DNA from: a virus
Virus record (IMG/VR): IMGVR_UViG_3300020420_000026
Coordinates: 1-46,274 of that record
Length of the DNA: 46,274 nt
Strand: one strand, 5' to 3'
This document shows, piece by piece, positions 26,651-37,854 of this stretch. A program made the position numbers and the translations under genes. The first letter of the stretch is position 1. Each line of letters begins with the position of its first letter. The notes below the pieces were generated by a model, which saw nothing but the letters and a program-made list of their open reading frames with translations, was not told the origin of the DNA and made no database searches.

Positions 26651-27913
26651 TTAGTGTACGTCAGCCCAAGTATATCCGATCTTAGCTTCTGCTGCGATGG
26701 GACATCTTAGATTGTAGTGTTCGCCGGCCAATCTGGCGGCTGTTTCGAGCCATTTTGCAAATTCTTCTGCAAATCTTGGGTAACATTCGTAGTTTAGCTC
26801 GTCATGTACGAATGAGAGTTGGTGGCCGTCTGGTGGTAGACATTCATTCACAATCACCATCCATCTTTTGGCGACCGTCGCTGCTGATCCCTGTAGGAGG
26901 TAATTGAGAAACTTATGCCCTTTGTCAACGCTGATACGACGACCGTCGATGGCGTTTGCATAACCTCTTTTGCTAGCTTTCTCGCAAGCGAGTAGCAAAT
27001 CTGCCAGACCCGGAATGGCAGCAATATAAGCTTTACGAATCTCTGCCCCTTTGATAGCGGCTGCTTTTTCGGACAATAACTTATCATAGCTGTATCCTAG
27101 TTTGGTATTGCCAGCCCCGTAGAGGAAGGCATAGGTAACTGTTTTAACTTGTCTTCTGGTAATTCCAATTTTATCGGCATTGGTTTGGTGAATATCCCCC
27201 GTAGTAAGTATTCGTTGATACCGGCCATTATCATACCTCGAAAGGTAATGAGCAAGCATACGGAGCTCAATCCCACTAAGATCGGCAGACACCATTTGAT
27301 AGGTAGGCGTGGCCCGGAATAGTTTTCTGAATCTTTCATCTGATGGTACTTGTGCTAAGTTTGGTTTTCTGTGTGCACATCTGAATGTGCTGGTGGCAAC
27401 CCCGCAGTGGTGATGTATACGATTACACGTCGTAGATAGCTTCTGCCATGCGTTCACGCCTTCCGAGATCATCCCCAATTTCTTGGTAATATCTAGACAT
27501 TTCAGAAACAAGAGGGCTGTCTCCGACCCAATATCTTTCAATACTGTCTCGTCTACGACCGGCTTGCCGGTGGCTGTTCTCTGTGTTGGTTTCCAATTTT
27601 CGTGGGTCTGTAGTATCCATGCTATGTGGTCTCGTGAGGTGGGGTTAAGTTGTTTAAGTTTTGTAAATGGGCATCCTTGTACGTACCCTTGTGTCCGGTT
27701 ATTTCGCTTAGGTGTAAACACTGTTCCAGCAACGAACCCGAATTTTCTGCGTAATACTTCTGTAGCTTCTTCCAGTTCTCCTCTGAGAGTTGATTCGAGC
27801 TCGTAGGCTGCTCGTTCGTCGAAATACCATCCATGTTCTTCTTGTTTTTGTAAGATGTGTGCGACCTGATGTTCTAGTTGTACCCAGTCAGGTAAGGGTG
27901 GAAATGTTGGCAT
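26651..27913 (-). CDS. DNA polymerase, polymerase domain (split T7 gp5-like)
   Basis: 420 residues corresponding to T7 gp5 from about residue 215 on. Motif A D211-LSGIELRMLAHYL, motif B K257-TVTY261-AFLYGAG, and motif C FVH370-D371-E are intact. Y261 matches Tyr526 of T7 polymerase. The 3'-5' exonuclease lies in the separate upstream ORF. The ATG 27913 lies inside that ORF and has no ribosome binding site (AATAAACTATG), so expression needs coupling, a -1 frameshift or an unseen error. The thioredoxin-binding thumb insertion of T7 appears shortened. Confidence 0.9.
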   Translation of the reverse strand: MPTFPPLPDWVQLEHQVAHILQKQEEHGWYFDERAAYELESTLRGELEEATEVLRRKFGFVAGTVFTPKRNNRTQGYVQGCPFTKLKQLNPTSRDHIAWILQTHENWKPTQRTATGKPVVDETVLKDIGSETALLFLKCLDITKKLGMISEGVNAWQKLSTTCNRIHHHCGVATSTFRCAHRKPNLAQVPSDERFRKLFRATPTYQMVSADLSGIELRMLAHYLSRYDNGRYQRILTTGDIHQTNADKIGITRRQVKTVTYAFLYGAGNTKLGYSYDKLLSEKAAAIKGAEIRKAYIAAIPGLADLLLACEKASKRGYANAIDGRRISVDKGHKFLNYLLQGSAATVAKRWMVIVNECLPPDGHQLSFVHDELNYECYPRFAEEFAKWLETAARLAGEHYNLRCPIAAEAKIGYTWADVH

Positions 27914-28416
27914 AGTTTATTTGTAACAATAACGTCTTGTTCGCAATAGTCCTCCATCTCCTTGCTCCATGCTGACCAGTCGGCAGTCTGTCCAAAGTTC
28001 CCTTTGTATTCTCCCAACCTGTGGCCATATGACTCCAAGGAGTGGCGACCATAAAGTTTTGGTGGCATACCGTCAATCCTTGCCTTGCGGTCTACCTCTA
28101 GCATATCGGGGTGGTACAACCTCGACAGTAGTAATGTATCTATAACTCTACCCTCTGGCTTGAAGAATGGGTAGACTTTCTTTATCATCGGTATGTCAAA
28201 GCCAATGATGTTATGGCCAATGATAGTGTCAGCACACATTAGCGTTGTGACACCTCTGCTGATTGGCATTGCAGAGCCTGTATCGTTGTATCTGTAAGTC
28301 TCACCTGTCTCATAGTCGAGAATGACTAAGCAGTGTAGCTCAACGTCCTCTTGACTTAGTGGTGTTGTTTCCAGATCGAACAGGAGGGTAATAGGTTTTG
28401 TCTCTGAATTTTGCAC
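27874..28416 (-). CDS. DNA polymerase, 3'-5' exonuclease domain (split T7 gp5-like)
   Basis: 180 residues. Exo I LLFDLETT (D14, E16), Exo II IIGHNIIGFD and Exo III YCEQDVIVTN are present, as in residues 1-187 of T7 gp5. The frame stops at TAG 27874 after a 40-base overlap with the polymerase ORF in the -1 frame. Together the two ORFs make about 600 residues, a typical cyanopodovirus polymerase. Either a genuine gene split, a frameshifted gene or one missed base in the data. Confidence 0.88.
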   Translation of the reverse strand: MQNSETKPITLLFDLETTPLSQEDVELHCLVILDYETGETYRYNDTGSAMPISRGVTTLMCADTIIGHNIIGFDIPMIKKVYPFFKPEGRVIDTLLLSRLYHPDMLEVDRKARIDGMPPKLYGRHSLESYGHRLGEYKGNFGQTADWSAWSKEMEDYCEQDVIVTNKLCQHFHPYLTGYN

Positions 28417-34780: not shown

Positions 34781-35677
34781 TTAGTTTTTGTTGTATCTGT
34801 CAAGTAGCTTTGTGTAAGGAGCTTTGTTTGACTCTATAAAAGCATTATAGTCCATTTCTTTGTTGTTGTAAAGGTCTAGTAACTCTTTAAGAAACTTGTT
34901 TTCATCTGCTGATATACCTACAACTCTGCCTGACTTAGAACCCTTAGCTTTAGCTGGTGCTTTCTTGGCTGGTACTAGCTTCTTGGCTACAGCCTTGACT
35001 GCTGGTGCTGGCTGCTTTGCTGCTGGTGCTTTCATAGCTGCTTCTGCATCTTTGATTGCTTGGTTGATAGCTGCCTGTTCTTTGGCTCTGTCCTCTGGTG
35101 ATGTAGAGAAATCATATACTGGTAGTGATGTTGTCATGGTGGTAATAATGAATGATGGTTTACGTGATGGTATGCGTAGATAGTTTGTAGCTAGCCACGG
35201 CTTGGTGTTGAGGTAGCGTTTGTACGCTGTGATAGTGTCGATAGATGTATCGAACTTGATGTGCTCTGGCATGGCACGAGTAAACTCTGTGACCTTGTGT
35301 GATGCAAGTGATAGGAACTCGTCAGGGAATGAGGTGTGGTATATCATCTCTGCCTGACTGATAACGTCAAAGCAGGTATGCACCTTGTTGTAGCGAGCTT
35401 GATACTCATGACACAAAGCATAGCCATGTCGTATGAGCCATGCAAGATTGTACTGGTTGGCGGCAGCCCAGATAGTGCAAGGGTGTGACCGAAATGCACC
35501 ACGCTTGGTAGCATAGGGTGTGCCGTCCTTCTTGTATAACTTGCCCACACCATAATACCAATCGCTGTATATGATAGCAAGCATCTGGCAAGTCTCGAGT
35601 GGCATCTTGACTATGTGCTTGTCGGGTAGGTTGCGAGCCGATTGTATCGGGCAGGGATCTGTTACAAAGATGTTCAT
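34781..35677 (-). CDS. conserved phage protein with Ala/Lys/Pro-rich linker and C-terminal domain
   Basis: 298 residues from ATG 35677. Residues 1-180 (MNIFVTDPCPIQSARNLPDK, HIVKMPLETCQMLAI, HPCTIWAAANQYNLAWLIRH) match a phage family of unknown function with the pattern DP...A..L.DKH..KM..E..QML. Residues about 190-225 form an acidic start; 225-255 is a histone-like APAAKQPAPAVKAVAKK linker; 260-298 is a small C-terminal domain. An ATG between the parts could start a separate protein, but no ribosome binding site is seen. The predicted promoter places transcription start at the ATG, which would make the mRNA leaderless. Confidence 0.72.
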   Translation of the reverse strand: MNIFVTDPCPIQSARNLPDKHIVKMPLETCQMLAIIYSDWYYGVGKLYKKDGTPYATKRGAFRSHPCTIWAAANQYNLAWLIRHGYALCHEYQARYNKVHTCFDVISQAEMIYHTSFPDEFLSLASHKVTEFTRAMPEHIKFDTSIDTITAYKRYLNTKPWLATNYLRIPSRKPSFIITTMTTSLPVYDFSTSPEDRAKEQAAINQAIKDAEAAMKAPAAKQPAPAVKAVAKKLVPAKKAPAKAKGSKSGRVVGISADENKFLKELLDLYNNKEMDYNAFIESNKAPYTKLLDRYNKN

Positions 35678-35683
35678 ATCTAT

Positions 35684-35712
35684 ATTATAGTTCGGGTTTT
35701 TGATTCCGTCAA
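35684..35712 (-). promoter_or_regulatory. sigma70 promoter (TTGACG-N17-TATAAT) with no room for a leader
   Basis: Minus strand: TTGACG at 35712-35707, 17 bases, TATAAT at 35689-35684. Only six bases separate the -10 box from the ATG at 35677, so the first transcribed base would be at or next to the A of the start codon. It lies between the tRNA-Asp gene and the MNIFVTDPC gene. Confidence 0.75.
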
Positions 35713-35733
35713 CGAAATGTGTTGAAATCAAAA

Positions 35734-35805
35734 CGATTCTACGGGGAGTCGAACCCCGACCATGTCCGTGACAGGGACACGTTCTAACCATTAAACTATA
35801 GAATC
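35734..35805 (-). tRNA. tRNA-Asp (anticodon GTC)
   Basis: 72 bases that fold fully: acceptor GATTCTA/TAGAATC, a short D stem GTT/AAC with AATGGTTAG loop, anticodon stem TGTCC/GGACA with loop CTGTCAC (anticodon GTC), variable TGGT, T stem CGGGG/CCCCG with loop TTCGACT, discriminator G. CCA is not encoded. It is in the same direction as all genes. A single tRNA gene in an early region is unusual for a T7-like phage. Confidence 0.93.
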
Positions 35806-37080: not shown

Positions 37081-37136
37081 GTGTGCGTCCGTCCTTGTGA
37101 TTGTGAAATAGGTTGTAATCTTTGTCTCATACCTTT

Positions 37137-37170
37137 ATTATAGCATCTTATCTTGAGACTGTGTTGAGAT
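37137..37170 (-). promoter_or_regulatory. early promoter 2 (ATCTCAACACA-N17-TATAAT)
   Basis: Minus strand: ATCTCAACACA (37170-37160), 17 bases, TATAAT (37142-37137). The -35 equivalent AACACA is far from TTGACA, but the same 11-base element with the same spacing precedes promoter 1 at 37574-37607. Drives the 105-residue gene and downstream early genes. Confidence 0.7.
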
Positions 37171-37241
37171 GTGTGGAATCTCAGATGAGTATACTGAGTC
37201 GCATGAGACTGATTGTGAAATGATTGTGAGATGTGTGAGTC

Positions 37242-37340
37242 TCAACATACTTTCACTGGTCTTGATTTGACACGCTTGACAAACTGAGACTTACGTCTAC
37301 GATTGCGAGTTGAGCGCATCTTGATATACACATATGTCAT
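37242..37340 (-). CDS. 32-residue Arg/Lys-rich peptide
   Basis: It reads MTYVYIKMRSTRNRRRKSQF, then VKRVKSRPVKVC. AGGAG lies ten bases before the ATG, overlapping the end of the preceding gene. Extremely basic, so nucleic-acid binding is likely. It lies among the GAGAC motifs. Confidence 0.58.
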   Translation of the reverse strand: MTYVYIKMRSTRNRRRKSQFVKRVKSRPVKVC

Positions 37341-37343
37341 TGA

Positions 37344-37541
37344 CTAGACTCCTGCGAATGCAAGCTGAGTCTCAGCCTTGAGATTGACTGCTACACCTAG
37401 TGTCTCAAGGTTCGCAATATCGTTAGCATTGATAGTCTTCTTACCTGTGAGACTTGTGAGAGCAGCAGCATATCTTGGGTCTAACACATAGTGTAGTTCT
37501 CTACCGAAGGCTTGTGTCTTAACTGTCTTGATGTTGGTCAT
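37344..37541 (-). CDS. 65-residue first early protein
   Basis: It reads MTNIKTVKTQAFGRELHYVL, then DPRYAAALTSLTGKKTINAN. A strong AGGAG precedes the ATG by nine bases. It is the first solid gene of the early region, only about 26 bases after the predicted start of promoter 1. Compact alpha/beta composition; no recognised family. Confidence 0.75.
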   Translation of the reverse strand: MTNIKTVKTQAFGRELHYVLDPRYAAALTSLTGKKTINANDIANLETLGVAVNLKAETQLAFAGV

Positions 37542-37854
37542 GTTTGGAATCTCCTTTTCTCTCGTATATACCTATTATAGCCGTCCAATATGAGATTGTG
37601 TTGAGATTTGAGCAGTCCCACACGATGCAAATGAGTCGCACATGAGTGTGAGTCTAAGACTAATACAGCTTGATACTGTCTCGAGACTGGAACGCCAACA
37701 GATGGCGACGCATGAGTCTACAGTTGCGTCCTTGTTGCGCTGAGACTCACGGTTCTTGCGAGACGCAGCGAGACTCAGAAGTCTATAATAACACGGCTGG
37801 CAACGGGGGCAAACCGTCCTGTGTGCATACGTATATCGACCTCTCAAATTTGCG
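37542..37854. other. non-coding region at the head of the early operon
   Basis: Apart from promoter 1 this 313-base stretch has no convincing gene on either strand; the open frames in it have no ribosome binding site and an odd Cys/Ser/Arg composition. It is dense in GAGTCTCA-like motifs and contains a plus-strand TATAAT without a -35 box. It may hold the left genome end, a regulator-binding array or both. Confidence 0.55.
37574..37607 (-). promoter_or_regulatory. early promoter 1 (ATCTCAACACA-N17-TATAAT)
   Basis: Minus strand: ATCTCAACACA (37607-37597), 17 bases, TATAAT (37579-37574). It shares the 11-base upstream element, the following RTCTCA and the exact spacing with promoter 2 at 37137-37170. 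It would be the first promoter met by host polymerase on the incoming genome. Confidence 0.72.

Follow-up and report, generated by a model that had tools for sequence, protein, structure and literature searches.

The window analysed here, i.e., the whole stretch of 46,274 nt, belongs to an ocean cyanobacterial virus and represents a T7-like cyanopodovirus whose genes are encoded on the minus strand. T7-like proteins identified in it are the RNA polymerase, an internal virion protein and the major head protein, and it also encodes a DNA polymerase, a primase-helicase and a T7-type terminase. The DNA polymerase is apparently split into polymerase and exonuclease ORFs (26651–28416), as is annotated likewise for P-SSP7 and S-TIP37. 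TerL of the window is ~78% identical to that of P-SSP7. As the repeat array described here follows terL, it is located at the genome-end junction, at the left genome end.

A direct terminal repeat of 132 bp can be predicted from two boundary marks, TATACG on the left (37835) and A[TC]CTGT on the right (37703), which are kept among relatives. TATACG and ATCTGTTGGC equal the ends of the 206-bp repeat of P-SSP7 and of the 150-bp repeat of S-TIP37, both of which are visible in the respective records, and the 206-bp terminal repeat of P-SSP7 is proven (PMC3350473). No end overlap was found in the window's own record, and the 132-bp repeat rests on the marks known from P-SSP7 and S-TIP37. From these, we infer that the physical left genome end lies at ~37835.

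Two short ORFs and a gene for an acidic protein follow at this end (Table 1). For the 65-aa product of the first early gene, no match was found in the phage collection searched, and one Foldseek search of the PDB with its AlphaFold model (pLDDT 76) was without hits at E<=0.001. The TGA stop codon of the 32-aa ORF forms part of a TGAGACTCA site. Family searches with the 105-aa early protein gave no family. A further early protein of 336 aa (34781–35791) matches Pyr_excise as well as phrog_624, the annotation of which reads “DNA binding protein” only, and features a lysine/alanine-rich C-terminal stretch.

Table 1. Features at the left end of the window, ordered from the putative genome end inward (positions are those of the window).
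Feature	Position	Strand	Remark
Putative direct terminal repeat, 132 bp	37704–37835	-	Boundary marks as in P-SSP7 and S-TIP37
Candidate promoter P0, weak -10-like TATTAT within the putative terminal repeat	37785–37790	-	Weakest of three promoter candidates
Units TGAGTCTCG, TGCGTCTCG, TGAGTCTCA within the putative terminal repeat	37741–37777	.	Near-tandem, 9-bp spacing
Whole array	37124–37777	.	13 GAGAC; ~21 palindromic units at >=7/9
GTCTCGAGAC, just inside the terminal-repeat boundary	37678–37687	.	Seen in the sequence
Predicted early promoter P1	37574–37663	-	Alignment of P1 in ~68 relatives
P1 upstream unit TTAGTCTTA	37655–37663
P1 upstream unit TTAGACTCA	37649–37657
P1 upstream unit TGCGACTCA	37632–37640
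P1 TCTCA copies	37602–37606 and 37591–37595
P1 -10 TATAAT	37574–37579
First early gene, 65 aa	37344–37541	-	Clade-specific; six array units >=7/9 inside
Second ORF, very basic 32-aa peptide	37242–37340	-	Homologues in closest relatives
Predicted early promoter P2	37137–37244	-	Module conserved in 40 relatives
P2 upstream unit TGAGACTCA	37236–37244
P2 upstream unit TCAGTCTCA	37204–37212
P2 upstream unit TGCGACTCA	37195–37203
P2 TCTCA copies	37165–37169 and 37154–37158
P2 -10 TATAAT	37137–37142		Extended (TGC)
TGAGACAAA where P2 transcripts are expected to start	37121–37129	.	Seen in the sequence
Acidic early protein, 105 aa	36763–37080	-	Downstream of P2; array stops before it

A palindromic unit and its distribution

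A preliminary description of this DNA had reported 13 occurrences of GAGAC/GTCTC in about 650 bases, all of which are present (37124–37774). The density, given there as roughly tenfold above chance, was confirmed: the best 650-bp segment inside the array comprises 12 starts, compared to a mean of 0.79 outside and a maximum of 5 in any sliding 650-bp segment over the rest of the window. A similar density elsewhere, which would have argued against a distinct array, is hence not found. Dinucleotide shuffling of the region yielded 3.0 ± 1.6 GAGAC (max 8 in 300 shuffles) vs 13 observed, and the array segment ranks first among 101 segments of 900 bp. In the window as a whole, GAGAC is below chance, with 69 copies vs 87 expected. 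This deficit of about one third relative to the dinucleotide expectation is alike in the window, P-SSP7 (L090) and S-TIP37 (L092) and is therefore not special to the array; a reading of GAGAC as restriction site was dropped, as the deficit elsewhere in the window is matched by these two phages.

In fact, GAGAC represents only part of the actual, longer unit. The near-palindromes already recognised in the array correspond to the 9-bp palindrome TGAGWCTCA, about 20 imperfect copies of which extend over the left end, and the enriched family also takes in ATCTCA, GACTCA, GTCGCA and GTCTTA variants. Units matching at >=8/9 occur nine times within 37195–37777 vs ten times in the remaining ~45 kb of the window, and shuffles of the array region contained 0.6 such units. 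In 59 related left ends, the set kept after removal of near-duplicates, we counted 97 exact copies, i.e., 1.6/kb vs 0.012/kb in flanking DNA; the enrichment over flanking DNA is 112-fold for exact matches, and the ratio at 8/9 is 43. The spacing of the units is irregular, with peaks at 6, 9, and 11 bp. An EM motif search converged on an uninformative AT-alternation motif and was replaced by counts of 7–9 of 9 matches. The copy singled out earlier, GTCTCGAGAC, is present as well, and some relatives carry AGTCTCAAGACAGTATC at its position. The array had been described as spread over promoters and coding sequence, which holds true with the correction that the putative terminal repeat is also covered.

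Units inside the 65-aa gene are more frequent than its protein sequence would demand: across relatives, 121 were found at >=7/9 vs 70 ± 4.5 in synonymous shuffles and 35 at 8/9 vs 20.7 ± 3.1, whereas the 105-aa gene used as control showed little or no enrichment (52 vs 44 ± 4.8 and 6 vs 7.6, respectively), all of these shuffles taking related sequences as independent, so that kinship inflates the differences. Duplicated promoter and leader modules sharing words could leave such a pattern as a compositional by-product without any binding function; consistently, a module is common to P1 and P2, and the leader-like words CACAATCA and AAGGACG recur in the region. However, the low unit count in region shuffles, the excess over synonymous expectation and the persistence of units in relatives whose 65-aa protein is only 51–67% alike render this option very unlikely.

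The clade defined by the 65-aa first gene comprises 69 IMG/VR loci, across which GAGAC reaches 7.3/kb in the array segment vs 1.8/kb around it. Close relatives carry the array at the syntenic position, where its absence would have spoken against it, and the few members with a low number of units (e.g., L124, L149, and L103) retain a TCTCA by P1. It fades with distance, and relatives with a TerL identity below ~82% mostly do not carry it. Among the matches listed, most other viruses with paired TGAGWCTCA have few further units, and the densest ones feature repeats that differ or are longer, e.g., TTGAGAYTGAGTCTCATTATCA, which we took as a separate phenomenon. About six TTGAGAYTGAGTCTCATTATCA-like copies lie beside a run of C in four viral contigs in which the window's proteins have no close matches (L312:7574–7773, L352:7532–7733, L283:12677–12860, and L324:2025–2134), and this repeat recalls Fur boxes. 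A GC-rich viral contig (L348:1734–1803) carries five exact TGAGTCTCA, some of them directly abutting.

Register of the units to predicted early promoters

P1 and P2 are predicted to be host-type early promoters, which a standard promoter scan missed because of their weak -35. In the aligned relatives, the TATAAT of P1 is conserved and usually preceded by TGC, constituting an extended -10. A TCTCA starts 16–17 nt before this box in 53 of the 59 relatives; a second exact TCTCA precedes it by 27–28 nt in 26 of 59, with ATATCA and ATCTTG-like variants elsewhere. The two copies flank the -35 position, and TGCGACTCA lies farther upstream. This upstream module is common to P1 and P2, and the TCTCA/-10 layout recurs at P2, so that sites fixed relative to promoter elements, as expected of an operator, are found at both. 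At P0, many relatives show TTGCTATAAT followed by TGAGTCTCA, and array units sit just downstream of the P0-like TATTAT. A scan of IMG/VR for the promoter module returned 36 contigs, all of which are clade members by early-gene or TerL similarity.

The combination of a palindrome with a fixed register to the -10 boxes suggests that host-type early promoters are the target of a protein binding as a dimer. Of the three options put forward in the preliminary description, the operator for an early regulator is the one best supported, by the palindrome and the fixed -10 spacing. Based on the computed unit, its enrichment, its -10 spacing and its clade distribution, we infer, with a confidence slightly short of an even chance, an operator array for a putative dimeric, phage-encoded protein that turns down P1 and P2. 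Such a DNA-binding protein would occupy many TGAGWCTCA sites and control whether the host RNA polymerase initiates at the two promoters, turning them down once early products accumulate. Phage origin and repression are preferred due to the clade restriction and to the position of the sites, which lie close to the -35, within the spacer and at the start; alternatively, the sites may serve an activator or a host factor. Arguing against an operator, the array reaches into the putative terminal repeat and the coding sequence, which is beyond the needs of simple promoter control. None of the early genes searched gave a confident regulator match, and a comparison of array density with early gene content among relatives yielded no clear candidate for the binder.

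Two known systems resemble parts of this layout. The MotA box of T4 is a 9-bp box around -30 of middle promoters, joined to an extended -10. The window likewise combines a 9-bp box around -30 with an extended -10, but its boxes are palindromic, present in many copies and placed on the first promoters; no MotA/AsiA relatives were among the matches of general family searches. In PhoB/OmpR-type tandem sites, in turn, a pair of short cores with a distance of 11 bp immediately precedes the -10, and the two TCTCA copies, which are 11 bp apart and end 11 nt before the -10, resemble this activator layout. Their core sequence differs, and no such regulator was found among the early genes searched.

This resemblance is one argument for sites of a host DNA-binding protein, which could be recruited as activator, or titrated, at the first-entering end. 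Moreover, transcription from the first early promoters has to precede the synthesis of any phage protein. Nevertheless, we regard a host protein as unlikely, since the promoter module is restricted to one phage clade and gave no match at 0–1 mismatch in 18 picocyanobacterial genomes, a set which may not include the true host of the clade. A host regulon was rejected on the latter grounds, and for the titration of a host protein, the third of the earlier options, no positive evidence was obtained. Confinement of the module to the clade and its absence from these 18 genomes rather fit a phage-specific regulator.

The units could also serve as lagging-strand primase or replication-start sites, as each contains GTC, which forms the core of the site recognised by T7 primase, and as the window encodes a T7-like primase-helicase. 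Primase sites would, however, require neither a palindrome nor a fixed distance to TATAAT, and a word as abundant as GTC would by itself call for no array, which makes this role highly improbable.

Left-end repeats of other phages

Dense short repeats running inward to early host promoters from the terminal repeat, which in the window is a putative one, are also found at the autographivirus left end of T7, where 11 exact copies of CCTAAAG occur between 17 and 332; this array is known as “SRL”. The T7 unit is 7 bp long, has one orientation, recurs at ~13-bp intervals through much of the array and lies mostly upstream of A1, whereas the 9-bp palindrome of the window is irregularly spaced, fixed to the -10 boxes and continues into genes. 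Top 6-mer excesses within the first 900 bp were obtained for SP6 (ACTAAG), gh-1 (CCATAGG) and phiKMV (AGGGAG), i.e., words other than that of the window and almost all one-oriented. The signal in T3 is weak, and for P-SSP7, S-TIP37, and Syn5 the 6-mer excess test found no comparable left-end repeat. Backgrounds for this test were the first 6 kb only for SP6, gh-1, phiKMV, T3, and Syn5, and that of T3 was used for T7. Inverted CGCTCGC clusters are located near the terminal-repeat marks at the left ends of other cyanopodovirus clades (L044, L036, L077, and L053).

These likenesses would fit an element of the genome end with a role in packaging, genome entry or the processing of concatemers; in this case, the promoters would be overlapped only incidentally, owing to the crowded left end. 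The array runs inward from the putative terminal repeat like that of T7, the differing repeats of SP6, gh-1, and phiKMV demonstrate that the trait recurs, and other cyanopodovirus clades carry CGCTCGC or GATCAATTAACGC repeats near terminal-repeat marks. The replication or packaging element proposed earlier is thus possible, as part of the array lies in the putative repeat and its placement matches the T7 repeats. On the other hand, the copies listed for T7, SP6, and gh-1 are one-oriented, which the palindromic unit of the window is not; only three of the 13 GAGAC fall into the putative terminal repeat, while ten are in the unique left end; a packaging site would not be expected to keep a fixed distance to -10 boxes; and P-SSP7, S-TIP37, and Syn5 are without a counterpart. 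We consider a genome-end function rather unlikely.

To our knowledge, the function of the T7 left-end repeats is not settled, and we know of no operator control by the comparable array in T7. The window shares with these phages a lineage-specific, dense short repeat confined to the left end, and its array seems to be a variant of this recurrent feature that is palindromic and embedded in promoters. From the literature searched for the repeats at the T7 left end and for early promoters of cyanopodoviruses, only the paper on the genome ends of P-SSP7 (PMC3350473) was of use.

Returning to the operator array, it is conceivable, though doubtful, that this uncultured cyanopodovirus clade possesses a palindromic operator system not described before, including a putative DNA-binding protein of its own, which would control early promoters read by the host RNA polymerase, a level of regulation we are not aware of in T7 itself. 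In any case, the array marks a marine phage clade without isolate in the phage collection searched, and it provides a concrete 9-bp bait, TGAGWCTCA, together with P1 and P2 as two named promoters for testing. Considering that several T7-like phages carry different left-end repeats, one of them a palindrome locked to promoters, the ends of these genomes may bind a sequence-specific protein.
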